Assembly: GCA_001931905.2 (NCBI GenBank)
Contig: MSJI02000817.1
Coordinates: 1 to 64,000 of the forward strand
Reading direction: 5' to 3'
DNA length: 64,000 nt
From: Cladosporium sp. IMV 00045
Taxonomy: Eukaryota; Ascomycota; Dothideomycetes; Cladosporiales; Cladosporiaceae
The position numbers and the translations under genes were made by a program. A model generated the notes under the pieces. It saw only the letters and a program-made list of their open reading frames with translations. It was not told where the DNA came from and made no database searches. Position 1 is the first letter of the stretch. Every line of letters starts with the position of its first letter. Positions 21,817 through 61,429 of this stretch are shown one piece after another.

Positions 21817-23264
21817 ATGGCACCCCTCGACCCATCTACCAGCAGCATTCTCATCATCGGCTGCGGCACCTGGGGATCATCAACAGCCCTCTGGCTCGCA
21901 CGCAACGGATACAAGAATGTCACAGTGCTAGATCCTTACCCAGTGCCCTCAGCAATCTCAGCAGGCAACGATGTCAACAAGTGAGCCTGATCCTCCTTGC
22001 CACATCCATCTCCCAGCATCCAAACTGACCATCATCACCAGAATTGTAGAAGGTTCGCCCCCTCTTTCAAACCAGATCAAAACCAACTGACACGATCACT
22101 AACAAAGGCACGAGGTCGCTCCCGCAAACCATTCTCAGAGTTCACCGGCCCGGAAGCCGAGCGTCTATGGACCTACAACGAAATCCGCGCGGACGCCACT
22201 GAGACCTGGCTGTCAGACCCGCTGTTCAAGGACTACTACCACGAAACTGGCTACATTCTAGCTGCCAGCGATCCCGTGAACGTCGAAACACTGCTCCGTG
22301 AAGAACAGCCCACGCCCGAGAATGGCTTCCGCGAAGTCAACACCCCCGCCGATTTCCGCGCTCTCATGCCCGAAGGCGTCCTGACAGGCGACTTCCCCAA
22401 CTGGAAAGGCTGGTCCAAAGCCACCGGCGCAGGCTGGTGCCACGCCCGCAACGCGCTCATAGCAGCAGCGCGAGAAGCCGAGCGACAAGGCGTGCGAATC
22501 GTCCAGAGCAAAGTCACCAGCCTAATATTCGAACACGCCGACGTCAAAGGCGTCCTCACCGAAGACGGACAGCAATGGCGCGCCGACCGCACCATCCTGT
22601 GCGCCGGCGCCAACGCCCCCCAGCTGATCGACATGAAAGACCAACTCCGCCCCACGGCCTGGACGCTGGCACACATCGCCATGACGGAGGAGGAGTGCAA
22701 GCTGTACAAAAACCTACCGGTGCTGTTCAACATGGAACGGGGCTTTTTCATGGAACCCGACGAGGAGCGCCGCGAGTTGAAAATCTGCGACGAGCACCCT
22801 GGCTGGACGAATTTTGGCACTTCGAGCGACGGCGCCAAGGCTTCAGTGCCGTTCAGCAAGCACCAAATCCCGCTCGAATCCGAGGAAGGCGTCCGCCAGT
22901 TCCTGCGCGAGACGATGCCGCACCTCGCGTCGCGACCCTTCAGCTTCGCGCGCATTTGCTGGTGCGCCGACACGGTCAACCGAGACTTCTTGATCTCAGC
23001 CACCCAGACTATCAGTCGTTGACACTGGGCGTGGGCGCCAGCGGGCATGGATTTATGCACATCCCCGTTGTGGGCAAGTATATCGTGCAGTGCATGGAGG
23101 GGAAGCTGGATCCGAAGATGGAGAGGTCTTGGAGGTGGAGGCCGGAGACGGCGGTGGGGAGGGATTGGGATGCGTTGCAGGGGAGGGGTGGTGGGCCGAA
23201 TAGGTTGAGGGATTTTGGGGAGGTGAAGGAGGATCAGTGGACGAGTTTGCCGGCGAGGCTGTAG
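21817..23264 (+). CDS. Fructosyl amino acid oxidase (amadoriase), one frameshift
   Basis: Exons are 21817-21980, an 11-nt exon 22042-22052, and 22115-23264. The N-terminus has the FAD-binding loop GCGTWGSS and the family hallmark VPSAISAGNDVNKI. DPLFKDYYHETGY, GVLTGDFPNWKGW and PFSFARICWCADT follow; the last carries the Cys used for covalent FAD. These enzymes oxidise Amadori products (fructosyl amino acids) to amino acid, glucosone and hydrogen peroxide, often in peroxisomes; the end SLPARL resembles a PTS1. The frame breaks at about 22993-23000: NRDFLIS is in one frame and HPDYQSLTLGVGASGHGF in another, which one missing base would explain. No intron fits there. It is either a recent pseudogene or a sequence error. 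Confidence 0.85.
22042..22052 (+). other. 11-nt microexon of the oxidase gene
   Basis: The 11 nt AATTGTAGAAG lie between an intron ending CACCAG (21981-22041) and one starting GTTCGC (22053-22114). Together with the flanks they code the IVE that follows NDVNK. Joining without it loses the conserved Ile and the phase. Confidence 0.65.
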
Positions 23265-23814
23265 ATCAATGGTGTATGTTTGCATGCGAAGTGCGACGAT
23301 CAAGACGACAAGATGGCTGATGTGTTGTTGTAAATCGTTGGTATATTGACGCTGAGTTTATGGGTATCTCTGATTCAAGTCCAATCGCGGCATTTCTTCC
23401 AAGACGGCTCTCCCTTCCAGCCTTGCCGCGGTGCGTGTTGGTCATCGACACACAGTTTGTAAGAGACCATCATATCTCTTCAGGCGAGCGAGCGACGGCA
23501 CCTCTTTGCTCGCTATTGACTAATACCGCTGCCACTCTGGATCCAGTCGTGCGTCGTATGATAAGCCGAATCTATGTATCATTTGGTTAATGAGTACATG
23601 GGGTTCCAGGATCGATTCGGCGATTCAAAGGGTCAAGCCAGGCGGTCCGTAGCCATGAGGATCATTGTGGTAACAACCTTCTTCCTCGGTAGTTACCAAG
23701 CATGGAAGAGCCATGTTAGCCATCCTCAGAATGAATAGCTCCCCTCAAGTCTTCTGTAGACAGCAATTCGAGCAGCTATGTCGCTTTTTCAAGTTCCAAG
23801 TTCCCTTTCCCTCC
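23265..23814. other. Convergent 3' region
   Basis: The oxidase and the WD40 gene converge here. No gene is recognised. Confidence 0.6.
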
Positions 23815-24867
23815 TCAGACATTCGTCCCGCCCACAATCCTCAGTCCACCCGGATCACCTGCATACGCCAACCAATACCTAAGCGGATGCCACGCCAGCC
23901 AAGTGACCGGATTCGCCGTCTCGATCGTATGCACCTGCTCGCCCGTGTCGACATGGCAAACCTCAATCCCCGAAGAACTATCCCGTGCATCGCTCCCGCT
24001 GCTCGCCGCAATATACGCTCCGTCAAAGCTGAAGCTCAAATCCCGCACGCTGCCCATGTGCGGCGTCAGCGTGTGCGCGCAGTGCCAGCTCGTCGTGTCC
24101 CATAGCGTCACCATGCTATCACTCCCGCCGACGGCGACGTACGAGCCCGCGGGCGAGTGCTGCACGGCGTAGGTGGCGCTCGTGTGCGCGTTGAGAGTGT
24201 ATAGTAAGTCCAGACTGGGCCAGTCAAGAACTTTAACAGGCCCTTCGCCAGTTGTAGCGAAGAGTTCCCGCCCCGAATTCGAGAAAGCCATAGCGTTGAA
24301 CTGGCCACGATCTTTGACGGGCGTACTATCCCTCGCCTCAGCCGACCAGCCCGCGCCCTCACTCGCTTCCATCTTCCTGACATCCACAGCCATGACGGCG
24401 TCGTCTTTCCTCCCGACCAGCACGCTCTCCCCGCTCGGGTGCCAATTGAGAAACAACCCCGTATCCCCCGTCTTACACTCCACGGCAACCTTGCTCCCCT
24501 TCCCAGCACCCACGCTCCCTCCACCAGCGACCCTCAAATCCCACAGCCGACACATCCCATCGCCTCCCGTACTAGCCAACACGGCCTCGTGCGTCGGGCA
24601 AAAAGCCACCTTTTCCACCATCGCGGTGCCGCCCGCGCGCAGCTCCGTGGTGCTCTTGACATTGGGGCGTTCGGGGTTCCAGACGCGGATGTAGGAGGAG
24701 ATGGAAGTTGCGATCGCGCCGCCGGTGGGCGACCAGGAAAGCGAGCGGATGTTGGGCGCGAGGCCCGTGGGGCGCCCTGTTTCGGCGAGGACGGCGGGTT
24801 TGATGCCTTTGAAGGTTGTGGGGAAGAGGTCCTTTTTCAGGGGCCGCGAGGTCTTTGGCGGCGCCAT
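23815..24867 (-). CDS. THO complex subunit, WD40 protein (Tex1/THOC3-like), 350 aa
   Basis: The single exon starts at ATG 24865-24867 (MAPPKTSRPLKKDLFP); the frame is open further upstream, but homologous proteins start near here. WD40 blades are visible: IRSLSWSPTGGAIATS, CRLWDLR, FNAMAFSNSGRELFATT, VTLWDT, VRDLSFSFDGAYIAASS and VTWLAWHPLRYWLAYAG. The last of these, followed by PGGLRI, is typical of THOC3/Tex1. The THO complex couples transcription elongation to mRNA export in the nucleus. The C-terminus is short, as expected for a single propeller. Confidence 0.88.
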   Translation of the reverse strand: MAPPKTSRPLKKDLFPTTFKGIKPAVLAETGRPTGLAPNIRSLSWSPTGGAIATSISSYIRVWNPERPNVKSTTELRAGGTAMVEKVAFCPTHEAVLASTGGDGMCRLWDLRVAGGGSVGAGKGSKVAVECKTGDTGLFLNWHPSGESVLVGRKDDAVMAVDVRKMEASEGAGWSAEARDSTPVKDRGQFNAMAFSNSGRELFATTGEGPVKVLDWPSLDLLYTLNAHTSATYAVQHSPAGSYVAVGGSDSMVTLWDTTSWHCAHTLTPHMGSVRDLSFSFDGAYIAASSGSDARDSSSGIEVCHVDTGEQVHTIETANPVTWLAWHPLRYWLAYAGDPGGLRIVGGTNV

Positions 24868-25345
24868 GGTTGGGGTAGTGGGTTGGTGGTGTTGGCGTGT
24901 TTGGTGGTGGGGGAAGCGCATTGGAAGGTGTTTTGGAGCTTGGAGCTGGAGATTCGACGAAGCTCCCGCTATGCTGGTGAAGCTCCAGCGAATGCCAACG
25001 TCACTTGCATTAGATACTACATGTACATACATCTAGAACATTACTTGTTCGCACAAAAGAGAACTCCAAGCGACGAATTTGATCTCGAAACAAAAAATAC
25101 CATTTTCCGGCCGCGTTACCCTTTCTACTCATCTACCTAAGTACCAACCACATGCACTCTCTATATCATGCTTTTTAGACGCCAACAAACTCCCACCCCC
25201 TCCTCTCTTATCATCCACAAAAACAAACAACAAGAGAAGACCACCATTTCCGCACAACCGCAGTCGCTGACGATCGTTTCGACAAAGCAAATCAAAAACT
25301 TCAAAAGAGGAAAACAAAAAATAACGTCTCATTCCTATGCTCTCT
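24868..25345. other. Intergenic region, tandem minus-strand genes
   Basis: Promoter of the THO gene and 3' UTR of the coatomer gene. No gene is recognised. Confidence 0.6.
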
Positions 25346-28300
25346 CTACGCCATCTCGCCGATCTTGCTCAAACCCTTGAGCGAACCCAAGCTGAGCGCC
25401 AGGCCCTGAGATCGGCTGCGTATCCTCATGAAACCGGTGACGGGGCCGTTGTCGCCTTCCTTCTCCACGCTCAAATTGGCGAGGGCGTCCTCACCTGTGA
25501 GTTTGTTAGTAACTGTCTAATAACGCCTGTTCTGACATGATGGAAAGAACTTACCAAAAACCGACCGCGCGTACAAGTTAGCGCTCAAGAACTGACAATC
25601 GCCGCTCAAGCTGGCCGCGGGCGTGAGGCACTCCATGTTGGTGACCTTCATGAGGCGGTCGAGGAAGTCGCGCAGGCCCTTGCCGGCCTGCAGCTTGGTG
25701 TTGATGTTGACCTTGTTCTCCCACTCGAACTCGGTCCACATGGTGCGGAACTGGGTCTCGCTGCAGTGCGCGGGCTGGATGTAGTCCATGATGTCGACGT
25801 GGACGTCGTTGAGGATCACCACCTGCGTGTCCGTGCTGTGCGCGCCGTCGTAGATGATGTTGCCGAAGATCACGCCCGTGTCGGTCGAGGAGACCTTGAT
25901 GGTCGCTTGCACGTTCATGAAGTCCAGGCCGGGCAGGTTTTGGGTCGTGGGTCGCTCGACGACCTTGAGGTCGCCGAGAGTGGCGAACTCGACGGAAAGG
26001 TTCTGCAGCGTCTCGCGGGTCTGGTTGACGAGCAGCACGTCGAGGATGATGTCGAACTGGTGTACTTGAACGTAGGCTTCTGCGTACACGGGGTCAGAGA
26101 AACCGGTGAGCTGAACAACACGGCTAAGCTTGGATGTGATATGCTCGGTCGCACTGTCACCACCGGTCGCCTTCTCGAGGTCCATCTCGATCTCCTCGGC
26201 GCCGTCCATTTGGTTCTTCTTGCTGAGTTGTCTGAATGACACGACGTCGTCAACCTGGATAGCGCTCTTCGCCTTGGAAGCCGCGTCCTTCTCAGCACGT
26301 TTCTTCTCCTCAACCTGAACCATGTCGCTAAAAGCCTTGCGAGTGTCCTCCAAGAACGCAGTCTCGAGGTCTTTTTGCTTGGCAAACTCAGCCAGAGATC
26401 TGACACAAGACATGATACGGTCGACCGAGTCTTCATCAATAGGTGCCTTGACGAATTGTGATTGACCAGCGCGCACAATCGAAATCATAATAAGCATGGC
26501 TTCCGCACGCAGCGCGTTTGTTCGTCTGGGATCGGTCGTGATTTCTGAGTGGCGCATTACTAGCTTCGTCAGGGTGGAAGACAGGACTGTCGCAAGGTAA
26601 TAGTCGCCGTCCAGAATAAGCTGTCTCAAAGGCGGCTTCTGCGCGGCCTTGACCGCATCCAATTTCGCATTGGCGGAAGCCTGGCTCGTGAGAGCGCTCT
26701 CCGTAGCGTACGTGCCGTCTGCCAGGACCTTCCTTGAGCCAGTTGGCTGCGCGGGTTTGTGGCCGTTGACTTGGTCGTTGAGTGGCGCTTCACCCTCCGG
26801 CTGCTCCTCTAGCAGGCGTGCCTCTGAAGCAACGATCGGGATCTCACCCAGGCTGGCTCTGATCCTCTTCCACGCCTCCTTGATATCGCTTTCTTCCAGA
26901 GAGTATTCACCCACAATCCACAGGCTTCCCCGGTAGACCTTGCCAGCTCTAACTTCTCCAAGCGTTGACACCAGACGCTCCACAATTGAGCTGCGCATCT
27001 TGGGGAACTTCTCCACAACCTCCTTCACGAATGTGATGACATCCACGGCGGAGGCGTTGTTGAAGTCTGCAATGAAGTCCATAAGGAGACCAACCACGCT
27101 CTGTGCGACCTCGGAGAATTTGATGGCGCATTGGTGTATCGAGTGGATCAACAGGGATCTGTACTCGTTGTTCTTCTCGTACTGTTCATCCACCGTCTTG
27201 GACAGCTCCTTCTTCAAGAGCATAACCACCTCTTCTACGTTCTTGCTGGAGACCATGTCCAGAGCGAGCTCGAGCGATTTCCTCCTGACATCGAGATCAG
27301 GGCTAGACAGGACACGCAAGATTTCCATGGTCAGATCGTCCAGAATTCCATAGTTGGCCTTGCGCAGCTGGTTGACCTTCTCCAGAACGATAAGCTTCAC
27401 GTTGTTGTCCGACTCCTTGATCGCAAGCTCAATGAACTTGGCAGCAGCGGCCTTGACTGCGACGGGGTTGTTCGTGAGAGCGGTAAGAGAAGATGCGGCC
27501 TCGTAGATGACGGTCGACTCCTTTGCTTCCAAGAGGTCGAAGATCAGACGCAGATAGCGCGCCTTGTTCTGCTGGTTTTGCACCGCATCCTTGCGGATGA
27601 ATTCCAACTCAACCAGTTGCAATAATTCGCTTGCGTTGGGGATTCCCTCGAACACTGAGCTCAAGTATTCGAGCGCCTTCTCGTGGCTGATGGACATCAA
27701 AGCCGCAAATGCATTGCGCTTGCAGGTGTTGTCGCTCTCGGATTCAAGGAAGTTCTGGATGAGTTCGGGGGCATCAGGCATGAGAGCCTCGGAGTGCTGG
27801 TAGATGGAGGCGATAGCGAAGACGGCGTTCTTGCGCACGTAGGAGTGTCTGTGCTCGAGGCATGATCTTGCGGGAGCGAGCAGCGGCTCGATGAGTTCGG
27901 GTTCGCGCAGCTTGCACAGGAAGCGAAGGGTGTTTCCGCGGATGTATTCGTTGGCGTGTTGGAGATCCATACGGATGCCGTTGCTGTTAGATGTCAGTAG
28001 GTATCCTCTTAGCACAGCTACACACCTGCGGTCGATGGACCATACCAAACCAGGATCATCTCTTGCTTCAGCTTTCCATTGGAATCCAGCTTCGGGGCGA
28101 CTTCGTAGTACATGTACAACAGCTTCTTCAGAGGCTTGCTCTTCGAAGGCATGACGAAGCGAATGATGTGCATGAGGAGTTGCGGCATAGGGTCGCCATT
28201 CAACATGACGGTCAAGATCTGCTTCATCGTTTGCAGCTTGCTCTCGTCCGTTCCCTTCTCCAGCGCCGTCTTGAAGTCCTGCAGGGAGGGTTGGTCCGCG

Positions 28301-46631: not shown

Positions 46632-49600
46632 ATGGACTTCGCTAGTAAAGGCACCAGCAAGAGCCCGCCTTCGTCGCTCAAGGCTTCTGGTTTCATCGTG
46701 CCCAACTCGGCCCCTCTGGAGACCATCATGGACGGAGATACACCAGAACGCCCCGAGATGCAGAGCTTCGGCGACTCATCTGGCACCGCCACCTCGGGCG
46801 AGGAGATGGACTATGCCTCTGGTCAAGAAGGCGACTTCTACCCGGACAATGTCGCCACGAGGCACTTCTCGCCGAATGCGCCCAGCGCCGTCGACAGCAT
46901 GTCACCTCTGACCAATGCTTCATCATATGGCTGGACTCCTGGAGCATCGACGGCCTCCTCCAGAATGAGTGGCCGACCACCTGTGAGTACACCATACATG
47001 CCGCCAGAGGTCGGCGCGCCCGCCATGCACAGCGCGCAACCAAGGCCCACCAGACCGACCGCATCAAGGCAGCCTTCAAATGCGTATGCGCCGGCGCGAA
47101 GGCCCACGCAATACGTCAACACCGCCGGCGCCCCAAGGCAACGGACAAACTCGAGAAACAGACCAAGAAACCCAAACGCGGAATACCGGGCGCAAGAGAA
47201 GGCATACGTGCAGAGGATACGGCAAGAAGATGCGCCGAACAATGACTTCTTTGACAATCCGCGCACTCCGAGTTTGGATTACAGCGATGAGACCAGCACT
47301 GATGACGAGTCGCCAACTACGAGCAATTACGTCGAGAACGATCCGTACGACCAGGAGACTCTACTATACTACGGGAATGAAGAACAAGAACCATCGCTTG
47401 AAGAGTTGAAAATACCCGCAAATCGAGAGAGGCTAGAATGGCATGCTATGCTTGCGAACGTACTCACAGGAGATGTGGTGAAGCAAGAGAAAAAGCGCTT
47501 GATTGGAGGACCGGATACTCAAGGCGACAACTCCATGAAGACGGAGATCTGGATCGGAGTTCGAGCGAGGACTTGCGGCCGCAGCGTGGCCACGCAACGA
47601 CGTTTGATTGAAGAGGGCCGCCAAAAGGTCAAGCAGCTTATCGAGGCGATCATTGCGTTCGAGATCAAGGGAGAGGCGGAAGTTGGAAAGTCGCCTGTGG
47701 AGCAGGTTCAGCAAGTTGTTAATCGCATCGAGAAGGTTGAAAGGCTTTATCCTACACGACAAGCTCTCGAAGCCGCCCATCCTCGAGCTGCATTTGATGC
47801 TTACAGGGACTCTTGTAATGCTGTGATCTCCTGGCACAACACCACGCAACTCATCAATACCGAACTTGGTATCTTGCAGCAGTGGGTTGGCAACGTGGAG
47901 CTTGACTTCACAAAGCCACGAACTGCCCCTGACGGCGAGCAGAATGGCCATCTCTTCGACGACAGCTCGTTCATCGATCGCATCCTCAAGGAAGATGGTC
48001 TCAAATCCCTGCAGGGCGACAACAGTTTGCTCAATGGTGTCAACACGGTGATCAACAAGGCCAAAGTCACTCTGATTGAAAACGCCGAAGCATTCTCCAA
48101 CCAGCATCTTCCTCCATACATTGAAGAGTTGTTGACTTTGATCAACTTCCCTTCAAGGCTTATTCAGGAGATTATCAAAATGCGGTTGTCGTACGCGAAG
48201 AAGATGAAGGATCCCGCTCAGCAAGGTGTCATGATGGCCGAGCAGACAATCTTACAGTTCAGAATTCTCCTCACCCTGGCAGTCAAGATCAAGGAGGCTT
48301 ACCTGATTGTCGCGCAGCCACAGCCGGGTTGGGACTTGCCTCCTTGCATCGACGAAGCATTCGATGGTGTCGTTATTGACGCTCTGTTGTTCTACTTCAA
48401 GATGCTCAATTGGAAGCTTATGGCCAACAAGAACACCTTCAAAGAAGCCGAAATTCTGGAGCAGGAATGGGATTTCTGCTACCAGCTTGGCCGCCATCTG
48501 GAAGGCGGTGATGTTGAAGTGGCAGAGCAATTCTCCTCACTTACCTCCAGATCACTCAATCGTCTCACCACTCATTTCGAAAGGGAGCTCGTCAGAAGAC
48601 CCGATGAATTCGGTGGCGCTGAAATGGACAAGCGATACAAGTCGATCCTGGATTCTGTTCGTGTGCGCCAAAGAAAGATCTACCGATTTTCTAGGATCCT
48701 CAGCCAGAGGTTTGAGAACGCTACCGAGTATAACATCAACATGGCGCAGGACCACTTTGATGATCTTATGGAGGCCCTAACTCTGACTGGTCACTTCTTG
48801 GTCGAGACACAGCCGCCAGCTTCGGAAAGCAAGACAGAAGACTACTCATACTGGATCATCGCCTCCCCAACACTTCAGAACAGGCCCAAGGATATTGAGA
48901 GTATGCTCGGCACATGCTACCACGCTGAAGATGCCCCGGAAGACCCAAGCAATCCCTACGTCCTCATCCTCGAGCCTGAATATCCTCTGCAATGGGAAGG
49001 GCCCAGGATCCGTAGCGAAGTGCGCCGGACCGATCTCGGAATGAAGACCGGTCGTCTACGCCTTGTCGCAGACGGCAGCTTACAGAGACTGGCGAATGCA
49101 AACGCTACCTTTGCAGCAGTCACGGGCATAGAGCTGAACGTTCTTGTTGAGCAACGTGCAAACTTGGTGCGTGTCGACACGGAACTTACTAGGATCCGGA
49201 AGACAGCGTACAAGCTCAGTAATACCATCATGGACAGCGTGAAGATTGTCCGCAAGCAGACCGCCGGGCTTGAGTGCCAGGAACTCATTCAGACTTGCTT
49301 TGCATTCGCCACGGAATTTGGACAGCGTTCCGCGATCTACATGGACCAGCAGCGCCGGGCCATGCATCAGCTGAAGTTGACCAAGCTGGCTTTGGACTGG
49401 GTGAGCTTCATCGGCGACGACTGTGTGGCAAGCGACCGCAAGACTTTCAGGTGGGCTGTGGTCGCTTTGGAATTCGCAATGATTATGACTAGAGGTCAGA
49501 ACATCTTGTCCATCAGCGATGAGGAGTATGCGGTTTTGAGAGCGAAGGTCGCAGGCTGCATGAGCTTGCTGATCAGCCACTTCGACATCATGGGAGCGAG

Positions 49601-50828
49601 AAGCACTGTTGCGGCTCAAGCAGAGAAGCAGAGGCTGGAGACTATGGTTGGCAAGATGAAGCTTGACTACCACAAACTCAAGGATGACGAGGAGAGTAGC
49701 AAGGTCGTGCGCGCCCAGAGACTTGATGAACTGGAGAAGATTGACCAGGCCCGCAAGGAGCGTGAGGCAGAGAGGCAACAGATGGGTCGCGTGCTCGAGG
49801 ACTCGAATGATGCTGACCGTGCCTTGACGCATCTTTCTGCATCTGCCGGCAATGTGCACCTTCGCTGGCAGCAAGGCATGTTCGTTGGTGGCGGTACTTT
49901 TGGATCCGTCTACGCTGCTATCAACCTGGACTCTGGCCAGCTGATGGCTGTCAAAGAGATCCGCCTGCAAGATCCGAAGTTGATTCCCACAATCGTCTCG
50001 CAAATCAGAGACGAGATGGGCGTCCTTCAAGTCCTCGACCACCCAAACATTGTCCAATACTACGGGATAGAACCCCACAGGGACAAGGTTTACATCTTCA
50101 TGGAATACTGTTCGGGTGGCTCTCTTGCGGGTTTGTTGGAGCATGGCCGCATCGAAGACGAGACCGTCATCCAAGTCTACGCTCTGCAGCTGCTCGAAGG
50201 TCTCGGATACTTGCACGAAGCCAAGGTCGTCCACCGCGATATCAAGCCCGAAAACGTCCTCCTTGACCACAACGGCGTCATCAAATACGTTGACTTTGGC
50301 GCCGCCAAAGTCATCGCCAACCAAGGCAAGACGGTCGTCATGGACGGCACCTCCGGCCGACCCAAACAGCAATCCATGACCGGCACGCCGATGTACATGT
50401 CGCCCGAAGTCATCAAAGGCGGCAAACACAGCCACGCCCGCCTGGGCGCCGTCGACATCTGGTCCCTCGGCTGCGTCGTCATGGAAATGGCCACGGGCGC
50501 CCGCCCCTGGGCCTCGCTCGACAACGAATGGGCCATCATGTACAACATCGCCCAGGGCAACACGCCCCAGATGCCGACCAAGGATCAGATCTCGGAGTTG
50601 GGCTTGGACTTCCTGCGCCGTTGCTTTGAGCGCGACCCGGCCAGGCGCGCCAGCGCTGCGGAACTCCTGCAGCACGAGTGGATACTGAACATTAGGAGCC
50701 AGATGAATTTGGAGCCTGACACGCCGCAGACGCCGGCGAGCGAGGGCGGTAGCGGCGGATACACGCCTCTCAGCGCTGGCAGCTCGCACGGGAGCAGCAG
50801 GTTGGGGAATGAAGTTACGAATGCGTGA
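46632..50828 (+). CDS. HOG-pathway MAP kinase kinase kinase (Ssk2/OS-4 type), 1398 aa
   Basis: A single intronless frame; the first in-frame ATG is 46632-46634 (MDFASKGTSKSPP). Residues 1 to about 250 are disordered. A long helical region follows, including ERLEWHAMLANVLTGDVVKQ, the usual N-terminal regulatory region of Ssk2/Ssk22 proteins. The kinase domain starts at about residue 1078: glycine loop VGGGTFGSVYAAINL, Lys in MAVKEIRLQDP, HRDIKPENVLLDHNG, YVDFGAAKVI, TPMYMSPEVIKGG and VDIWSLGCVVMEMATG. Received from the Ssk1 response regulator, the osmotic signal passes through this kinase to Pbs2 and Hog1. All catalytic residues are present and no frame defect is seen. Confidence 0.95.
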   Translation: MDFASKGTSKSPPSSLKASGFIVPNSAPLETIMDGDTPERPEMQSFGDSSGTATSGEEMDYASGQEGDFYPDNVATRHFSPNAPSAVDSMSPLTNASSYGWTPGASTASSRMSGRPPVSTPYMPPEVGAPAMHSAQPRPTRPTASRQPSNAYAPARRPTQYVNTAGAPRQRTNSRNRPRNPNAEYRAQEKAYVQRIRQEDAPNNDFFDNPRTPSLDYSDETSTDDESPTTSNYVENDPYDQETLLYYGNEEQEPSLEELKIPANRERLEWHAMLANVLTGDVVKQEKKRLIGGPDTQGDNSMKTEIWIGVRARTCGRSVATQRRLIEEGRQKVKQLIEAIIAFEIKGEAEVGKSPVEQVQQVVNRIEKVERLYPTRQALEAAHPRAAFDAYRDSCNAVISWHNTTQLINTELGILQQWVGNVELDFTKPRTAPDGEQNGHLFDDSSFIDRILKEDGLKSLQGDNSLLNGVNTVINKAKVTLIENAEAFSNQHLPPYIEELLTLINFPSRLIQEIIKMRLSYAKKMKDPAQQGVMMAEQTILQFRILLTLAVKIKEAYLIVAQPQPGWDLPPCIDEAFDGVVIDALLFYFKMLNWKLMANKNTFKEAEILEQEWDFCYQLGRHLEGGDVEVAEQFSSLTSRSLNRLTTHFERELVRRPDEFGGAEMDKRYKSILDSVRVRQRKIYRFSRILSQRFENATEYNINMAQDHFDDLMEALTLTGHFLVETQPPASESKTEDYSYWIIASPTLQNRPKDIESMLGTCYHAEDAPEDPSNPYVLILEPEYPLQWEGPRIRSEVRRTDLGMKTGRLRLVADGSLQRLANANATFAAVTGIELNVLVEQRANLVRVDTELTRIRKTAYKLSNTIMDSVKIVRKQTAGLECQELIQTCFAFATEFGQRSAIYMDQQRRAMHQLKLTKLALDWVSFIGDDCVASDRKTFRWAVVALEFAMIMTRGQNILSISDEEYAVLRAKVAGCMSLLISHFDIMGARSTVAAQAEKQRLETMVGKMKLDYHKLKDDEESSKVVRAQRLDELEKIDQARKEREAERQQMGRVLEDSNDADRALTHLSASAGNVHLRWQQGMFVGGGTFGSVYAAINLDSGQLMAVKEIRLQDPKLIPTIVSQIRDEMGVLQVLDHPNIVQYYGIEPHRDKVYIFMEYCSGGSLAGLLEHGRIEDETVIQVYALQLLEGLGYLHEAKVVHRDIKPENVLLDHNGVIKYVDFGAAKVIANQGKTVVMDGTSGRPKQQSMTGTPMYMSPEVIKGGKHSHARLGAVDIWSLGCVVMEMATGARPWASLDNEWAIMYNIAQGNTPQMPTKDQISELGLDFLRRCFERDPARRASAAELLQHEWILNIRSQMNLEPDTPQTPASEGGSGGYTPLSAGSSHGSSRLGNEVTNA

Positions 50829-52203
50829 TTTTAGGGTGGAGAATTCCCTTTGCTTTCCGCTACGATGGTTCGCATCGCTTTTATCTGTCTCTTCCTTGTC
50901 TTTCCTCTTTCTTTTTTCGAAGCAATCGACATGAGCGTGGGCGTTAGGGATCCCAGGGACATACACACATAATGAGGGGATTGGATAGTCACATGGTTGT
51001 TTCCGCGGGATAGTAGGGGTTGGGGAGGTTATCAATATACCTTATTTGTATGGACCATTCTGTTGTCATTCACATAAGGTTGCTGAGCTTGAATATGATT
51101 TGGTTTTGTCGTTGTGGAAGGGCTGGATAAGCTTACTTGAGCTTAAAATTGATGGAGATGTTAATTCCAACCCTAACCCTTGTAACCCACGGCTTCGAGT
51201 TCTTGGGGTCAGATATCTAATGTCCGACCAATGCCAGGTGTGCAAAGACATTACGAGGCTCTTGGTATGGATTCATATCAGTATACGGCCTCTTTGATAA
51301 CTATGGGGCATTCCAGGATGAGTTCACAGATATTTCTGCATTGCAGCTGTTCGTATCGATCAAAGATCGCGAACATGATTCCCGTGTCTTCAAATACTTC
51401 ACGTGGTTCTCTATGGTAAACCCGTTCAATCGAAATCCTTTACGAGACGGAGATACCTGCTCAGAAGACATATTACAAGTGTCAAAATTTACAGTGAGTC
51501 GTTCAAAACCCACGTCTTGACTGCCAACACACAATGAACGCATGGATAAAGCTAAAGAACCCCACGGAGCCAACCCCCACGGGACGATGGAACTAATGAT
51601 CGAAGCCAAAAACGGGTCAATTGTTTTTCCGAGTTTCCCGACTTCATTGCTCCTCGTTGCATCCGTCCTCCGACTCAAAGTTGCAATGGCGATACATAAC
51701 ACCGTAGTCTGCCAGCACTTTGCTCGTCGCAATCTCAACGGATTGAAGGAGCGGTCAAGGGAGCTCTTTCGAGCTCTTCCCATGTGTCTTGCCAGCGAAG
51801 CGAGCCGATGAGCTCTAGGCGGCAGGTGATAGATAAGTTGCTCCTTTCGCTGTTGTTGTCTGTTTCTTTCCTTTCTTCTTTCTCTCCCATCAGAACAACA
51901 GATTCCAGAACTCGAGCCCTTTCGCTTCACTCCAATCTACCAGAACTCAATCAGATTTGTTCCAAGGGTTCTTCAAGACCCTGTCGTCACAACGTTTTCC
52001 AACCTTCTTAACTCGTGAGCCCTTCTTTTGTTTGTTTGTCGCTGCTTCAAGGAGTGAAGTGTACATCGTCCACAACATTACTGAAACGTCAAAATCAGGC
52101 TTCACCACCCCTACGCCGGTCGTCGCTGCTCCTCAGCAGGCTCAGGGCCGGATTCACTCGATACCAAGTAACCCTTCAATAAACCTCGACTTCATTTATC
52201 ATC
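50829..52203. other. Intergenic region, promoter of the inositol-phosphate synthase gene
   Basis: Nearly 1.4 kb with no recognised gene. A minus-strand frame at 51301-51930 lacks any domain. The last 200 bp is CT-rich leader. Confidence 0.6.
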
Positions 52204-53814
52204 ATGGCTCCTCACGCCGAAGGCATCAACAGCTTTGAAAGCAGCGTTGGTACCAACATGCACGCCACCACCGATTCCAAGCCGGAGCTCTTCACCGTTC
52301 AATCTCCCAACGTCCAGTACACCGACTCGGACATCACCAGCAAGTACACTTACCGTACCACCGAGGTCAATGTCGTCGATGGCAAGTACACTGCTTCTCC
52401 CAAGGAGACCCTTTATGACTTCAAGACCGAGCGTAAGGTCGGCAAGGTCGGCCTCATGTTGGTAGGCCTCGGTGGCAACAACGGCACGACTGTCACCGCA
52501 GGTATCCTTGCCAACCGTCAGGGTCTGTCCTGGGACACCCGTGAGGGCCCTCGTGCTGCCAACTACTACGGCTCTGTTGTCATGTCCTCGACTTTCAAGC
52601 TGGGCACTGATGCAAAGACCGGAAACGATGTCAACGTGCCCCTTCACGACATGCTGCCCATGGTCCACCCCAACGACCTTGCCATTGGTGGTTGGGACAT
52701 CAGCGGCATGGATCTTGCTTCTGCTATGGACCGCGCCAAGGTCCTCGAGCCTACGCTCAAGTCTCTTGTCAAGAAGCAGATGGCTACCATCAAGCCTCTT
52801 CCCAGTATCTACTACCCAGACTTCATTGCTGCCAACCAAGAAGATCGCGCCGACAATGTTGTCCCTGGCACCAAGGCTAGCATGGAGCACGTCGAGCACC
52901 TTCGTAAGGATATCAGGGACTTCAAATCTGCCAATGAACTTGACAAGGTCATCGTCCTTTGGACCGCCAACACTGAGCGCTATGCCGATGTGATCCCCGG
53001 CGTGAACGACACCGCCTCCAACCTCATGCACTCCATCGAGACTGGCCACGAGGAAGTTTCTCCAAGCACTGTCTTCGCCGTTGCTTGTATCCTTGAGAAC
53101 GCTCCATTTATCAACGGCTCCCCTCAGAACACCTTCGTTCCCGGCTGCCTCGAGCTAGCCGAGCAGCACAAGGCCTTCGTCGGCGGTGACGACTTCAAGT
53201 CAGGCCAAACCAAGATGAAGTCCGCCCTCGTCGATTTCATGATCAGCGCCGGCATCAAGCTCACCTCCATTGCCTCCTACAACCACCTCGGCAACAACGA
53301 CGGCAAGAACCTTTCCTCACAGAAGCAGTTCCGCAGCAAGGAGATCTCCAAATCCAACGTCGTCGACGACATGGTCGCCGCCAACACCGCCCTCTACAAG
53401 GAAGGCGAGCACCCCGACCACACCGTCGTGATCAAATACATGCCAGCCGTCGGCGATAACAAACGCGCTCTGGACGAGTACTACGCCGAGATTTTCCTCG
53501 GCGGGCACCAGACCATCAGCATCTTCAACGTGTGCGAGGACTCGCTCCTCGCGGCACCGCTGATCATCGATCTGGTCGTTATCGCTGAGATGATGACGAG
53601 GATCTCGTGGCGTGAGCACGGTCAGGGCGAGTTCAAGGGTTTCCACTCTGTTCTCAGCGTGCTGAGCTATATGCTCAAGGCCCCTATGACCCCGCCTGGC
53701 ACGCCGGTTGTCAATGCTTTGGGTAAGCAGAGGAGTGCGCTTGTTAATGTGCTCAGGGCTTGTGTTGGGTTGGACCCGGAGAGTGACATGACGCTTGAGC
53801 ATAAGCTCTTCTGA
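52204..53814 (+). CDS. INO1: Inositol-3-phosphate synthase, 536 aa
   Basis: A single exon of the family's usual length (yeast Ino1 is 533 aa). Landmarks: MLVGLGGNNGTTVTAGILAN (NAD binding), IGGWDISGMDLASAMDRA, SIYYPDFIAANQEDRADNV, VLWTANTERY, SYNHLGNNDGKNLS, KSNVVDDMV and GHQTISIFNVCEDSLLAAP. It converts glucose-6-phosphate to myo-inositol-3-phosphate, the committed step of inositol synthesis, in the cytosol. Coding bias is strong (C-ending codons), which suggests high expression. Confidence 0.97.
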   Translation: MAPHAEGINSFESSVGTNMHATTDSKPELFTVQSPNVQYTDSDITSKYTYRTTEVNVVDGKYTASPKETLYDFKTERKVGKVGLMLVGLGGNNGTTVTAGILANRQGLSWDTREGPRAANYYGSVVMSSTFKLGTDAKTGNDVNVPLHDMLPMVHPNDLAIGGWDISGMDLASAMDRAKVLEPTLKSLVKKQMATIKPLPSIYYPDFIAANQEDRADNVVPGTKASMEHVEHLRKDIRDFKSANELDKVIVLWTANTERYADVIPGVNDTASNLMHSIETGHEEVSPSTVFAVACILENAPFINGSPQNTFVPGCLELAEQHKAFVGGDDFKSGQTKMKSALVDFMISAGIKLTSIASYNHLGNNDGKNLSSQKQFRSKEISKSNVVDDMVAANTALYKEGEHPDHTVVIKYMPAVGDNKRALDEYYAEIFLGGHQTISIFNVCEDSLLAAPLIIDLVVIAEMMTRISWREHGQGEFKGFHSVLSVLSYMLKAPMTPPGTPVVNALGKQRSALVNVLRACVGLDPESDMTLEHKLF

Positions 53815-53973
53815 GTGAGCTGGGACGGGCGCGTCGAGGGTTGAGTTTGACTGAAGTTTCTAGAAGGGTATTCCATTGCACGAGCAGTATGGTTTGGAGT
53901 TTATTGCTTGTTCCCTGAGTTTCCGCAGTACATAAGGTATAAGTGATTACGTGAATACAGCTCATCTGTAGCG

Positions 53974-56652
53974 TTATGAAAACCCAGCGGTAAATGTCGG
54001 TCTCCTTCTCCTCGCCACCGTAGTCGTCGTTCTTTCTACTTCAACAGAATTGAAATCTGTGCCTCCGCGAAGTCTCCGCCACAAGTTCTGCGCGCGACCT
54101 GCAAGTGTCTTGCTTTCCGGACGCGGAGGATCTATTTCGTGCAGAGGTTTACCCGATTTAGCAAGCTCTCTCCTCTGCTTCTCTGTGGGATCTTCTGTCT
54201 CGTACTGCGTGACGAGGCGCCTGCGAACTGCATCCCAATCAGACCGTGAAGAAGGCATTGCGCTCGTGTCTCTACTGTCGGCTTCCTGTATCGATTCGCT
54301 TCCGGCGGGCTCTTCATCTGGATGCACCTCAAGTTCCCTTTGAGTGTCTGAGATTGCACTGGTTCTTGAAGTGTTGTGGGGTCGTTGTGGTGAGGGATCC
54401 CAGCGAAAGGAGACACGTCTTCGATCTCCAGGGTAGTGCCCTTGTGTATCAGCCATTCTCATGTCTCTGGTATCTCCTTGTAGGGCGGCCTGTTTAGATA
54501 GCCCGGGATCACTCTCTAGGGGTGCAGCAAGACCGTATTGTGGCCCTGCATGAACGGCTGGTCTGCTAGCATATCGATACGTGGTTTCTAAACGATCGGT
54601 GGGTGACCGAGCTCTCGCCCTTCTGCGTCTTGAGGGGATATGGGCGGAATCGTTCGATTCAAAATCTTGGTCGAAATGGTCGTTGTCGAAATGGTCGTTG
54701 TCGTCGCTAATCTGTAAAGTTGACCGTGAACCCCCCCAAATGGCGCCAGTCTCTGAAGTTGTCGATCCATGGCGTTCGCGGAAGTCGTCTGATAGCCAAT
54801 ATTGTTGCCGAGCCGCTGATGCAGGAAGAGTCAGCAAAAGAGACTGGTTAGGACTGCTTGTGGTTGGGGATCGAGAGCCTGAATCATGGTCTGAGTCGTC
54901 GAAGTCGGGCAGATCCGGCCTGGCTGATGGCAACTCCTTCGCGGCGCCAGTCCTTGATACAGAGAACTGTGCCAACTCAGCTGTTTCCGCATTGGTGTTG
55001 GCTGCCCATTGTGTAAGATTCTCACTATCCTGATAAGCTCCGTCTCCTTCGCGAGCATGGAGACCCAAGGCAAAGTCTTTACGTCCGGACGGCTCTCCAG
55101 AACCAAGTTGATCATCGAAGAGCTCGTGAAGATCGTCGCTGTGAGTCGAGATAGTTCTATTTTCAGTTGTTTTGCCCGAAGAAAATCCATTAGAGTCGGT
55201 GTGTTTTGAATCCAGATCGTCACGTGCAGGTAGAGCTAAGACGGCCACGGAGCTAAGATGTTGCTTCATATGCATTGCAAGGCTTGTGATGGAACCCTGC
55301 TCTGTCAGACAAACAAAGCATACCAGAGGCAGAATCTCAGAGCTGTGACCCGATCCGGGCTCGCTGTGAGGTTGGCTGAGATGGTTCGTCCAGCTCTTGT
55401 ATCGTGTGAAAGTCTTGTGTGGTTGTTTGCAACTCTTGTAGAGGCAGTAATAAGGCTGTAAATCTTCAAGGAGATGGCGTGCCCATCTTTTCTCGTTGAA
55501 CGTCCGAGCCGGCAGGACGAGCTGACAATAAGGGCACTGCTTTTCCTTCTCTTCAGAGCCCAGCTTAGGTGGAGGCGGTACTTCAAACACTCCGCCAGAC
55601 CTCAGACCTCCCCCAGAAGATGAAGCCACGGACGAAGTATCCTCAGATCTGACCCGACTTTCGTAACGCTCTGCCACGAACTCTGAGGAAGCTGTCTCAC
55701 TTGGCATTTGATCATTGGGATCGACCGCTGGTGTTTCTCGGAAGTGGCTGCCAATCTCTGAAGGAGTATGGATTTGTGGCAAATCTAGTGGCATGGACGT
55801 CTTGATGTGCTCGACGGTGAGAAGCTTCGTGTTTGGTTGCCTGGATAATCGCCTCTGATGATCGCGAAAATATTGCAATTGCTGCCGTCTGATGCAGATC
55901 AGATCTACACAGCGTTCAAACATTGCCTCTCGGTACGATTCGCACTGATTCGAGAGATTCTGCCCTGCAACTTTCCATCTTGCCTCCAGAACTCGCTTCA
56001 CAAAGACCCAAAATGGTGCGTTAGTCGCAAACACGATGGGTTCAATGAAGATCCCATCTTTTCTTGTGAATCCTTCATCGAAATCCGAAAGATTCGGAGC
56101 GCGTGACCGAGGTTGTCGGTTGCTTGCCTTCCGTATGGAAAGGGACAGCTTATGTAGGTCGCTGATAGAAGCTTTGATGGAGTTCAAGGATGCAGAAAGT
56201 GTCTCAATACCGAAAGACAGAGCTTTGCACAACAAAGCAAGTTCTTGAAAGACGGGATTGTCGTCACCTGTCGCATCCAGCTCTTCTAGTTTGTCGTCCG
56301 CAACCTCTGGGCTGCCAGTTATGACTGTTGCATGGTTATTTATGGCTACGTGTCCACATGTTACTTTCCAGCACTTACCTGAGATGATGTCGCTGCATAG
56401 TATCTCCAGCTTTCCTACGACTGCTGCTTTCACATATGGCGCGGTCCGAAGTCGATAGTCAAGGGACGAATGTCGAGCCGCAAAACACCCGATATTCGAA
56501 GCCCACAAGTTCAAACGAACGAGCTGTCGATCTGCTTCCAGCCGGATTGTCTCATCTTCTGTGCCTTCAAAGCACCAGAACAGTCTTCGCGCTCGCTTCG
56601 CTCGAGCTGCGATCGTGTCCTGGTCTGCTTCCACTGTTGAGTCTGATTTCAT
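53974..56652 (-). CDS. C2H2-type zinc finger protein of the fungal accessory type, about 874 aa
   Basis: The start is ATG 56650-56652. A 54-nt intron at 56325-56378 (GTAAGT...CAACAG) keeps the frame and removes unlikely sequence after CSDIIS. The N-terminal region (FWCFEGTEDETIRLEADRQL, LWASNIGCFAARHSSLDYRL) and the helix FVKRVLEARWKVAGQNLSNQ are usual for a large fungal family with a central zinc-binding part. Here that part is CPYCQLVLPARTFNEKRW, ARHLLEDLQPYYCLYKSC, KSWTNHLSQPH and LVCFVCLTEQ. The C-terminal third is disordered, with a short tandem repeat NDHFDNDHFD. The role of the family is unknown; it is often found among NLR-like and incompatibility genes. It lies 584 bp from the gasdermin-like gene, in tandem. 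Confidence 0.82.
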   Translation of the reverse strand: MKSDSTVEADQDTIAARAKRARRLFWCFEGTEDETIRLEADRQLVRLNLWASNIGCFAARHSSLDYRLRTAPYVKAAVVGKLEILCSDIISGKCWKVTCGHVAINNHATVITGSPEVADDKLEELDATGDDNPVFQELALLCKALSFGIETLSASLNSIKASISDLHKLSLSIRKASNRQPRSRAPNLSDFDEGFTRKDGIFIEPIVFATNAPFWVFVKRVLEARWKVAGQNLSNQCESYREAMFERCVDLICIRRQQLQYFRDHQRRLSRQPNTKLLTVEHIKTSMPLDLPQIHTPSEIGSHFRETPAVDPNDQMPSETASSEFVAERYESRVRSEDTSSVASSSGGGLRSGGVFEVPPPPKLGSEEKEKQCPYCQLVLPARTFNEKRWARHLLEDLQPYYCLYKSCKQPHKTFTRYKSWTNHLSQPHSEPGSGHSSEILPLVCFVCLTEQGSITSLAMHMKQHLSSVAVLALPARDDLDSKHTDSNGFSSGKTTENRTISTHSDDLHELFDDQLGSGEPSGRKDFALGLHAREGDGAYQDSENLTQWAANTNAETAELAQFSVSRTGAAKELPSARPDLPDFDDSDHDSGSRSPTTSSPNQSLLLTLPASAARQQYWLSDDFRERHGSTTSETGAIWGGSRSTLQISDDNDHFDNDHFDQDFESNDSAHIPSRRRRARARSPTDRLETTYRYASRPAVHAGPQYGLAAPLESDPGLSKQAALQGDTRDMRMADTQGHYPGDRRRVSFRWDPSPQRPHNTSRTSAISDTQRELEVHPDEEPAGSESIQEADSRDTSAMPSSRSDWDAVRRRLVTQYETEDPTEKQRRELAKSGKPLHEIDPPRPESKTLAGRAQNLWRRLRGGTDFNSVEVERTTTTVARRRRPTFTAGFS

Positions 56653-57236: not shown

Positions 57237-58064
57237 TTACTCCATCGGCATCCAAATACGGCATGTTGTACCGTCATCACCATGCCCCGTCACGACACAT
57301 TCGCCAATGTCTTCAGCCTCGTCTTCGACTAGATCTCCTGCCTCTCTCGCAACTTCATACTCCTCACCGGCCTGGTCAACTCCTAAGACAGCCCCTTTGG
57401 TAACCTCTGCGCTTCTTGCATCGCCTTGCTTATTCACAGTGATTCTCTCAACTTGAAACGCAAACACGCCAGGTCCGGGGATATCTTGTTCAACTTGGGC
57501 AGAATTTTCCGGCTTCCATGATGCTTTCGGCCCAACTGTTGACTCGATAGCCGGTATTTCCACGCCAACTTGAGCGTGTACGGATGTTTGCGACTGCTCA
57601 GGTGTCTTCACGATGACGCCGCGAGCAACTTTCACTCCCGTCACAAGGAAGACGCTGGCTTTTTTGCCACCGAAGCTTAGGTATTTCTTGACACCAGGAT
57701 CTTCGACTGCTGCTGCAAGATATGTAGAAGAAGGCGTAAACCAGCGTGTGTCGATTTTCTCGCAAGAGAACTCAATGTCTCGCGACGTTGCGGACGAGAT
57801 GTTTGCTGATGCTCCGAAGGTAATGAAGTGGATGAAGGTAGCGAAGATACCCAGAGCCCAAGAGCCGCCTTTTTTCACTGCGCCATGAACGTTCTTCGAT
57901 GCTACGGGATTCGAGATTTGCGTGTCAATCTTTTCGGGTAACGATGAAGCGGATATGACTTTTTGTGGCTTTTTGACATTTGAAAAGACACTGCCCAACA
58001 CTACGTCTGTGGGTTGGAGGTCCCAAGATGGTGACAGGAAATAGGTCTTAGCTAGAGATGCCAT
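57237..58064 (-). CDS. Gasdermin-like protein (HET-Q1/RCD-1 type), 275 aa
   Basis: The start ATG 58062-58064 gives MASLAKTYFLSPSWD; an upstream in-frame ATG is less likely because fungal members begin with a short segment before FxLSP. Family features in order: FLSPSWDLQPTDVVLGSVF (9-27), a hydrophobic stretch KGGSWALGIFATFIHFITFG (65-84), DTRWFTPSSTYL (105-116), VFLVTGVKVARGV (138-150), VHAQVGVEIP (162-171), FAFQVERI (201-208) and VTKGAVLG (221-228). An acidic tail of 47 residues follows. Fungal gasdermins kill the cell by making plasma-membrane pores after proteolytic removal of a C-terminal piece of about 5 kDa, the size of this tail. The divergent neighbour codes a subtilase, the kind of protease that does this in the HET-Q pair. 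Identification is by pattern; no search was run. Confidence 0.82.
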   Translation of the reverse strand: MASLAKTYFLSPSWDLQPTDVVLGSVFSNVKKPQKVISASSLPEKIDTQISNPVASKNVHGAVKKGGSWALGIFATFIHFITFGASANISSATSRDIEFSCEKIDTRWFTPSSTYLAAAVEDPGVKKYLSFGGKKASVFLVTGVKVARGVIVKTPEQSQTSVHAQVGVEIPAIESTVGPKASWKPENSAQVEQDIPGPGVFAFQVERITVNKQGDARSAEVTKGAVLGVDQAGEEYEVAREAGDLVEDEAEDIGECVVTGHGDDGTTCRIWMPME

Positions 58065-58384
58065 CGATGAAAGCGAAGACAGGGATAGGCAGCGTTTACA
58101 AAAAGTTCGAGAAAGGTTCGCTCGAGCGCATAGAAAAGTCTTCTGACTTGTACAGCTTCGGAGGCAACAATCAGCTCGGGTGGCTGATTTAATCCATACA
58201 CTCGGCATGCATGGTGTGATAGCTCAATGCAGACATGGCTGGCTCAGCTCGTCAGCTTCGCCAGCCTCGCCGCCAACCGTAGGATGATACCAGACTTCTT
58301 CTCTGCAGTCTGTACTCTATCACTGACTTTCGCAATGTAGGCTTTGTCGAGAGATATGAGGGCTGGCTTAATCGTTTCGCGACT
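58065..58384. promoter_or_regulatory. Bidirectional promoter of the gasdermin-like/subtilase pair
   Basis: The 320 bp between the divergent starts must hold both promoters, so the two genes could be co-regulated. No motif is assigned. Confidence 0.55.
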
Positions 58385-61300
58385 ATGGCGACCTCGGGAG
58401 AGCTTCTGGACATCGACTTTCGAAGGCGCCTGCAACTTCTGCAGATGCTATGTGATCCAACAGGCCCGACAAGTAACAGTCCAGCTCCACTGCTCAGACT
58501 CGCCACTCAGGCTAGCGTCAGAAGGAGAAACCACCCTTGGAGATTCTGGGCCAAATTACTCACTCCTCTCAGTCTACTATCCCAAGGAACACCATGCTGG
58601 CAAAGACTGCGAGACGAACACAGACACCTGATCGACAGTCTTTTGTCGAATTTGAACGATGGCCTAAATCAAGCATTCAAATCTGCAGAAGTATGTGGTT
58701 CCCTCGCACTTAAAGACGTCATCAAATTGACCCTTCGCGCAGGAGTACGAGCTACTTTTATTCTCGAATCTTTATACTTTAGCGAATTGGGGCAGCGATT
58801 CGGTCGTAATTTCCGATCAAACAAGCTCATCGCTTACGAAAGAAAAGCAAACACTCATTCTCGAAGCACTTGACGAGCTGGTCTTGATAGTTCTCGATGA
58901 CGAAGATGAAGCACCTGAAGACGGCGAAGTGCTCAGGACTACACCCAGAAAGCGCTTGGATCTACACCTCCGCTACCTGCTTTCCAGAATAACTTCGCAC
59001 TGGGCATGTTGTTGTTCTGCTCCACATAGGGCAGGACTTCTGTTGTACACACAGAGTAATTTGAGGGAAGATGTGGAGGCATGCGCTTTCACGTTGCTCT
59101 TGAATCGAAAAGAGCCGGGACGATCGTGGCAGGAAGCACATGTCACAATCAAAGAAGCGAATGACACGATGAAACAGCACCTTTTGCCTGCCCATACTTT
59201 TCGGCATCGCCCTGGATTCCTTCTACCAGAACAATCGGAAGAAGGAGGAAGAAGCGTTGGAAGCTTATGCCAAGCAGTACAAGTCAACTCTCCTTATAGA
59301 TTGGGTCTTGTTCTCGAACAAAGCTCTATTCGTGAGTTGAGTCGCACAGAACCTCCGATGAGCGAGTGGGAAGATGGAAGCTTGGTTAGTCTTGAACACG
59401 GTCTTCTGAGCGTTCACCAAGCGCCTTTTCCGCTGAAGTACCGACTCCCCTTGGCTTTGGTTCTATCATACTCACTCCTCGACTTTTGCGATGAATCGTG
59501 GTTCTCCGCTGGCTGGACAGCTCGGTATATCTACTTCTTTCAGCAAGCTGCTCGCCTGTCACTCAGACCAATTCTAGTCGCACCCGGCGGCGATCGAAAA
59601 GGCGCCAGCACTTCTACAGAGGCCAGATTACTGTTACACGGAATCTTGTTGATGGAGATCTTTGCGCAGAGGCGGATATCTCCAACCACGCATTGCACGG
59701 ATCTTGCAGAGCTGAGGAACATCGCCTGCCAAGAGTTCAATGCAGTGTCTTGGGATACTTACGAGCGCTACAAGACTTGCGTCCGAGAGTGTATTGAAGG
59801 CCTGCTCAGCCCAAACATTGCACCCGATGAAGATTTGTTTCACCATGCTGTTCTAAGAATCATTGATCTAGTATCAGCAGATCATGTCGCGGCATGGGAG
59901 GGTCAAGATCCAGATGAGGTGCTCAAGAACCTTCATCTACCGGCAGTCAACATAGCAGTCGAGTCGCCAAGATCCATCGCTCAAGGGGCTTCTATCACAG
60001 TGAATGGGCACAAGGGGACGCGAGCATTCTTCAAATCTAAACCTGCCCCTCCCCCAAAACATGGTCTCGCGATCAAAGGGCCTAAACCTCCAAGACCCAC
60101 TACTCCGAAACCCAATGTCTTCAAGGTAAGCCTCCATTTATCGTTCTTTCTTGATTCAACTGACATGGACTTTGAAGCTTAAAATGGTCACCCACAGCCT
60201 GAAAAGGGTTTTGACGAGTGCTGAGACAAAAGCTCCCTCTAAATCGTTGGTACCGCATGAGTGGCAGGGCGTCGAGGCCTTCCAGACGATCGATGACCCT
60301 GGAGAGTGAGTGACATTTGGCGCCCGTCGAAATGACTAGTTGATACATAGCATACTGACTTGCTGTCAAGACACTCAGGATCGATGAATTGGTTCAAGAA
60401 GTTCGAGGAGCTTCAAGACAGACTTCCCAAAAGACCTGCGACGCGATTGAACAGAATCAAAATAGCAATCCTCGACACCGGCATTGATTTGGAGAACGAC
60501 TGGATTGCCTACCGAGCTGGGAGAATTCGCTGCTGGCCAGACAATCAGAAATGCATAGACAGGAACGGACATGGCACGCATGTGGCATACTTGATCCTGA
60601 GGATCGCACCTCACGTTCAGATCTATGTTGTGAAAGTCACCGCGGCGAACGATTTAGGGACAGTGGACATTCCCAAGATTGCAGAGGTAATGGAGCTGTC
60701 CAATTTGAACTTTGGCAGTGCCCCGCTGACTGTTGACTCCCTAGGCCATTGAATACTTTTCATCGAATAACATGCCAGACGGCCCTGTCCACGCTGTGAA
60801 CATGTCTTTCGGCTTCCCGGAATATCACCCCACTCTAGAGCCAATCGATCAAGCTCTCAAAGCAGCACGCGAGCGAGGGGTACTATTCTTCGCCGCTGCT
60901 GGAAACGCTGGCGGCAACACTGGCAAGACCTGGCCGGCATGCTCTGTAGACTCTGGCGTGATCGCCGTGGAAGCGACGAATTCGTTCGGACGAATCACAT
61001 TTCAGTTCTGGCACCAGCGCTTTGCTGCACACTTTCGGAGAAGCCGTTGAGTCGTGCCAGGAAGACTCAAACAAGAAAACGATACACAGGAGCGGCACTT
61101 CCTTCGCCACGCCGATCGCCGTCGCAATCGCAGCAATAGTGCTGGGGACGGTGGACACCTACGTTTCTGACCACCCACATTCTCTCCCTGAGAATTTCCA
61201 GCGAGATTTGATGCCACGCCTCAACATCAGAGCGGGTATGGAGCGGATTCTCCGCATGATGTGCACTGATCAGAGCGAGGAAGTGAGGGAGGGCAAATTG

Positions 61301-61429
61301 GTTTACATCACGCCGTGGTACTTCCTCAAAAGGCCCGAGCTATACAGGGTTCATGTCATAGCCGATCATCTTCAGAACGTCCAAGAGCCTGGGGTGTTGC
61401 GTGGAGGTGGAAAACTCGCGGTGCATTGA
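58385..61429 (+). CDS. Subtilisin-like serine protease with N-terminal DUF7580-like domain, about 938 aa, one frameshift
   Basis: Exons are 58385-58690, 58743-60125, 60178-60305, 60371-60686 and 60745-61429. The first 600 residues are mostly helical. PLKYRLPLALVLSYSLLDFC followed by W and IYFF matches the fungal DUF7580-type domain. The peptidase S8 domain has IAILDTGID (Asp about 641), NGHGTHVA (His about 676), the oxyanion Asn in AAAGNAGG, and RSGTSFATP (Ser about 830). Between VIAVEATNSFG and SHFSSGTSALLHTFGEAV the frame shifts (about 60984-61003); one extra or two missing bases, for instance in ATCACAT, would explain it. An intron there would remove conserved sequence. No signal peptide is seen, so it acts in the cell. 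Divergent partner of the gasdermin-like gene. Confidence 0.87.

Follow-up and report, generated by a model that had tools for sequence, protein, structure and literature searches.

A gasdermin gene beside a DUF7580-bearing subtilase gene: very probably a two-gene death module in a filamentous ascomycete

Two genes stand head to head toward the right end of the window, by which we mean the whole stretch of DNA that was analyzed (64,000 nucleotides, 53.2% GC). The gene on the minus strand (57237-58064) encodes a small gasdermin-like protein, and the divergent gene, which begins at 58385 on the plus strand, encodes an S8 subtilase with an additional domain; the preliminary description had placed 320 bp between them, and this spacing holds. 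The features are listed below, with identities given against a second copy of the module on another contig of the same assembly (C407) and with the exon borders of the subtilase gene read by eye.

57237 to 58064, minus strand: gene for the gasdermin-like protein, 275 aa, single exon, intact open reading frame
58065 to 58384, no strand: intergenic region shared by the divergent genes, 320 bp
58385 to 58690, plus strand: S8 gene exon 1, 102 aa, 92% identical on C407
58743 to 60125, plus strand: S8 gene exon 2, 461 aa, with DUF7580 (PF24476, residues 75-352, E 7e-18), 95% identical on C407
60178 to 60305, plus strand: S8 gene exon 3, GT-AG borders by eye, open on C407 too
60371 to 60686, plus strand: S8 gene exon 4, where Peptidase_S8 begins and which bears the Asp and His motifs, Pfam E 1e-5
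60745 to 61047, plus strand: S8 gene exon 5, central portion of Peptidase_S8 (profile positions 108-180), E 6.4e-6, after which the frame is lost
61022 to 61429, plus strand: S8 gene segment with the Ser motif and the C terminus, out of frame with exon 5, in frame on C407

What is the small protein? By homology it is a fungal gasdermin, as the preliminary description had recognized from its motifs. Taken alone, the 275-aa protein matches the PADLOC bGSDM model with E 1.9e-7 over residues 54-229 and the NCBIfam prok_gasdermin model with E 4.6e-6, though its 26.6 bits fall short of the cut-off of 100, and its sole sequence match in the PDB to E 10 is RCD-1-2 (8jyz_B, E 0.0058). Pfam gives nothing significant for it (best E 0.16) and no gasdermin match for its paralogues on contigs C936 and C34 either. 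Run singly against PADLOC bGSDM, the paralogues match weakly (C110a 1.5e-4, C936 4.1e-4) or, for C34, not at all, and that of C936 has no NCBIfam match. A profile made from the window protein and its six paralogues in the same genome finds RCD-1-2 (5.2e-13), RCD-1-1 (8.7e-12, and as a fusion 5.3e-11), the HET-Q1 pores (9uv9, 2.4e-9), and a further RCD-1-2 entry (1.3e-7) in the PDB; these five are the only PDB sequences under E 1e-3, and every one is a fungal gasdermin. The nine rows that the search returned to E 10 also include three more gasdermin entries (E 0.067, 0.19, and 0.67) and an unrelated goose-type lysozyme (E 0.15). A single-sequence AlphaFold2 model of the window protein has a pLDDT of 35.5. 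When the gasdermin alignment was run against prokaryote and viral contigs, 45 and 20 pattern matches turned up, respectively, and none was confirmed.

The copy on C407 is 92% identical to the window protein and helps to fix its beginning. A longer window reading frame of 323 aa is absent from C407, where a stop interrupts the frame 11 codons ahead of the same Met; the start at 58064 is therefore supported, and the longer frame is not common to the two copies. If the border is drawn at residue 229, where the bGSDM match ends, the protein falls into a basic N-terminal part (residues 1-229, pI 9.26) and an acidic tail (residues 230-275, 46 aa, 5.03 kDa, pI 4.05). The tails of the other six gasdermins are acidic too, with 31-63 aa and net charges of -9 to -15 (the C110b entry in this comparison being a piece only), and the one exception in the N-terminal part is that of C34, with a pI of 6.22.

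The divergent gene had been described as an intracellular subtilase with an Asp/His/Ser triad. The S8 homology stands, with Asp and His in exon 4, and the protease is probably intracellular, having no obvious signal peptide by eye; an open triad is not confirmed, the Ser being out of frame. In the window, exon 5 runs into a stop at 61048 and the Ser segment, which matches Peptidase_S8 with a Pfam E of 0.0095, under the curated cut-off, lies in a different frame, so that the window copy does not carry Asp, His, and Ser in one open gene. On C407, a single 231-aa reading frame crosses exon 5 and the Ser segment (S8 match E 1e-12), its residues 4-86 and 87-230 mapping to the two window frames. The remaining C407 exons are all open, exon 3 included, with conserved borders, and the one TGA that a whole-genome search places within the C407 match lies in the intron directly before that exon; the same assembly thus contains an S8 copy with no break. 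At the window break, no base is repeated more than three times in a row, which argues against a plain homopolymer error, and an assembly fault could still be the cause. We also considered a further intron that would rescue the window frame. Mechanically, 14 choices of GT-AG borders keep the frame open, and we think such a rescue unlikely because all 14 sit inside a stretch that C407 reads as exon.

The protease thus carries an extra domain that could sense something, and our guess is that DUF7580 is the sensor. Its C-terminal motif had led us to suspect, by eye, a degenerate protein kinase. This idea was not supported: the best PDB profile match has E 0.03 (a protein called rop), an LRR-kinase follows with E 2.2, and Pfam to E 0.5 finds a kinase family in none of 12 DUF7580 members. 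The domain occurs at 14 places in the genome, three of them in gasdermin modules (C814, which is the window contig; C407; and C34). Our literature search found no mention of DUF7580, and we regard it as a mildly new partner of gasdermin.

The second copy of the module says something about the genome as a whole. The assembly has 49,867,185 bases in 954 contigs, and the module block is 88.7% identical to C407 over a 12.4-kb alignment. For Hortaea werneckii, a reference of 49.9 Mbp, a GC content of 53.1-53.6% (12 strains), and diploids with subgenomes 88.3-91.9% identical have been reported (PMC5952469). We infer, short of proof, that this genome is a hybrid diploid of the salt-tolerant black yeast Hortaea werneckii; our literature search found no paper joining gasdermin and Hortaea. 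Two stretches of the window, 20000-26000 and 48000-54000, have no second copy that we could find in the assembly, unlike 55.8-64 kb, and they may be hemizygous or collapsed. Next to the gasdermin lies a C2H2-like neighbor of 892 aa (53974-56652, minus strand; Pfam zf-C2H2_6 E 0.0019, below cut-off), the first part of which also adjoins the C407 gasdermin, at which point that contig ends; it matches a neighbor at C34 weakly (E 0.005).

Between C814 and C407, dN/dS is 0.26 for the gasdermin; 0.27, 0.13, 0.17, and 0.08 for S8 exons 1, 2, 4, and 5; and 0.16 for the S8 segment after the break. These values show constraint, not diversification, in both genes, and two copies make a weak test. The neighbors give 0.03 (MFS) and 0.17 (part of the C2H2 gene), and both module genes are under weaker constraint than the MFS gene. 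Synonymous divergence rises along the S8 gene, from a dS of 0.14-0.17 in the gasdermin and the first two S8 exons to 0.63 at the 3' end (61022-61429 against the C407 copy); the seven other pieces span 0.14-0.38. Identity is low away from the module too, at 0.75-0.86 per 250 bases between 65.75 and 67.75 kb of the contig.

How often does this pairing recur? The preliminary description had raised the case of relatives that never occur beside proteases. Whole-genome searches found at least seven gasdermin loci, the window included (an eighth match row is the second piece of the C110b locus), and each of the seven adjoins an S8 gene: C814, C407, C936, C386, C110a, C110b, and C34. Within this genome, then, the outcome speaks for the preliminary description. 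The genes are divergent on C814 and C407, with gaps of 320 and 341 bp, and divergent over 1.6 kb on C936 and C386, with a membrane-protein reading frame in between; the C110 contig has two copies about 36 kb apart, in each of which the gasdermin follows the S8 gene on the same strand, and on C34 the genes converge at about 40 bp. The proteases of C814, C407, and C34 carry DUF7580, and those of C936 and C110a, which were scanned, carry TPR repeats; the C386 and C110b proteases are close copies of these two. S8 matches numbered 19 rows, which merged to 16 genes. Whole-genome searches found no gasdermin near the nine other S8 genes, and the gasdermin profile gave no match in the surroundings of the six of these nine to which it was applied.

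A gasdermin placed at random would fall within 2 kb of one of the 16 S8 genes with a p of about 0.0024, and four independent groups would do so by chance with about 3e-11, a figure that assumes an independence that the groups do not have, since they probably arose as linked pairs. The S8 and gasdermin identities run in parallel between loci, at 45% and 42% for C936 against C110 and at 20-32% for pairs across other groups.

Both TPR-S8 groups have a reading frame with a single hydrophobic, membrane-spanning-like stretch (by eye), divergent beside the S8 gene; none was seen at the window module. In this frame the two groups resemble each other weakly, with 30% over 59 aa and E 2e-4. The C110 segment that is present twice about 36 kb apart comprises a regulator-like reading frame, a 480-aa reading frame, the gasdermin, the S8 gene, and the membrane-like frame. 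The coordinates are as follows.

L009:3726-4733, plus strand: membrane-like reading frame beside TPR-S8, hydrophobic stretch by eye
L010:3132-4142, plus strand: the same
L011:8878-9729, plus strand: the same
L012:8499-9305, plus strand: the same
G000:C110:145180-146010: first C110 copy
G000:C110:181294-182132: second C110 copy, with the gasdermin and the 480-aa reading frame broken

We argue that at this locus a filamentous ascomycete very probably carries a two-gene module for programmed death, made of a gasdermin and a DUF7580-S8 receptor-protease. The homologies of gasdermin, S8, and DUF7580, the linkage of the two genes, and its recurrence at seven of seven loci are in plain sight; cleavage, pore, and death would follow by analogy with HET-Q1/HET-Q2 and with the CHAT two-gene cluster of Podospora. 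The gasdermin would stay inactive for as long as it keeps the short acidic tail (about 5 kDa) at its C terminus. Its neighbor would be an intracellular multidomain receptor-protease, with DUF7580 as the presumed sensor at the N terminus and the S8 subtilase at the C terminus. On a stimulus, the protease would remove the tail, and the freed basic N-terminal part would then oligomerize in the plasma membrane and lyse the cell. The C407 protease could act in trans on both gasdermins. The earlier proposal of a pore-former with a linked S8 activator is, as a prediction from homology, from co-location at all seven loci, and from a published rule for fungal gasdermins, well supported.

That rule comes from a survey of 400 genomes that counted about 1900 fungal gasdermins. 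About 80% of the gasdermins share a cluster with protease genes, S8 genes being the partners for about 63% and CHAT proteases lying near 19%, and the S8 partners show 18 architectures (PMC10197012). The clusters of fGSDM with Q2L (HET-Q2-like S8) described there resemble ours in having a multidomain S8 receptor-protease adjoining the gasdermin, several to a genome; they differ in that DUF7580 is not named in the portions of that source available to us, and it may sit among the 18 architectures under another name (PMC10197012). HET-Q1/HET-Q2 of Podospora anserina offers the profile match to 9uv9, an S8 partner, and a tail of the same size, HET-Q1 losing a fragment of about 5 kDa (PMC12881547). 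Unlike our genes, het-Q1 and het-Q2 are two different genes that occupy one locus as idiomorphs (PMC12881547); ours are adjacent in one genome, and the protease has DUF7580. Because they lie side by side on both C814 and C407, we have a protease-plus-gasdermin two-gene cluster and not the het-Q arrangement. In Podospora, a clustered CHAT protease has been shown to activate its gasdermin (PMC12881547). RCD-1-1/RCD-1-2 of Neurospora crassa is the best PDB match by sequence but becomes active when two alleles meet rather than through proteolysis (PMC12881547). Bacterial gasdermins, whose models the window protein matches on its own, are likewise reported to lie in clusters with protease genes (PMC12881547); they are prokaryotic, and the window match falls below the NCBIfam cut-off.

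Is the window copy of this module still alive? It is possible, although we doubt it, that it is a relic decaying after hybridization or duplication, with the protease a pseudogene and the gasdermin surviving because it is served by the C407 protease or is harmless; this would be compatible with the main reading. The frame is gone before the Ser segment, on C407 it is open, and the other two duplicated modules each have a broken part in one copy (the S8 gene of C386 and the gasdermin of C110b), the unbroken duplicates being C407, C936, and C110a. Yet dN/dS past the break is still low, so the break is either recent or an assembly indel, and module genes do not show a clear excess of breaks over their neighbors: 3 of 6 against 2 of 14, which is not significant (Fisher p 0.13). 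The neighbors that break are the 480-aa reading frame in C110b and perhaps a 281-aa reading frame at C729/C434, which may be an intron. The 14 neighbors were picked by eye, with antisense and overlapping reading frames, and the unassigned ones beyond 66 kb, dropped; they are the C2H2 gene, the MFS gene, and the C936 membrane frame; two regulator frames, the 480-aa frame, and the membrane frame of C110; four of C729/C434; and three of C230. That three duplicated modules should each have a defective component in one of their copies would be mildly new and is possibly an assembly effect.

The preliminary description also thought of a HET-Q-type incompatibility locus, at which alleles or idiomorphs would differ among strains and fusion would bring death, as with het-Q or rcd-1. 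We consider this quite improbable. Two published fungal gasdermin systems do serve allorecognition (PMC12881547), one of our two protease copies is frame-broken, pseudogenization is a proposed origin of het-Q1/het-Q2 (PMC10197012), and the raised dS at the S8 3' end points the same way. Against this, both genes are linked on both contigs rather than idiomorphic, the gasdermin is under constraint, low identity is found outside the module as well, and the organism with both copies is evidently alive. Finally, that a subtilase of general proteolysis merely happens to lie beside an unrelated small protein is scarcely credible: the single-sequence match to RCD-1-2 is weak, but gasdermin models are matched directly and every gasdermin locus adjoins an S8 gene.

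The basic gasdermin-protease principle has already been published. To it, the two-gene death module that we propose adds a DUF7580-bearing protease as a candidate gasdermin activator and seven linked gasdermin-protease modules, in four groups, within a single fungus that is probably a clonal, salt-tolerant hybrid. One might go further and imagine, as an unlikely idea, that every doubled gasdermin module of the hybrid diploid is left with one working copy, the other having lost either its protease or its gasdermin. If this were true, two full copies of a death module would be selected against, and module loss would be part of how a hybrid genome settles. If the frame breaks are real, they would amount to a natural test of how a death module is tamed after hybridization.
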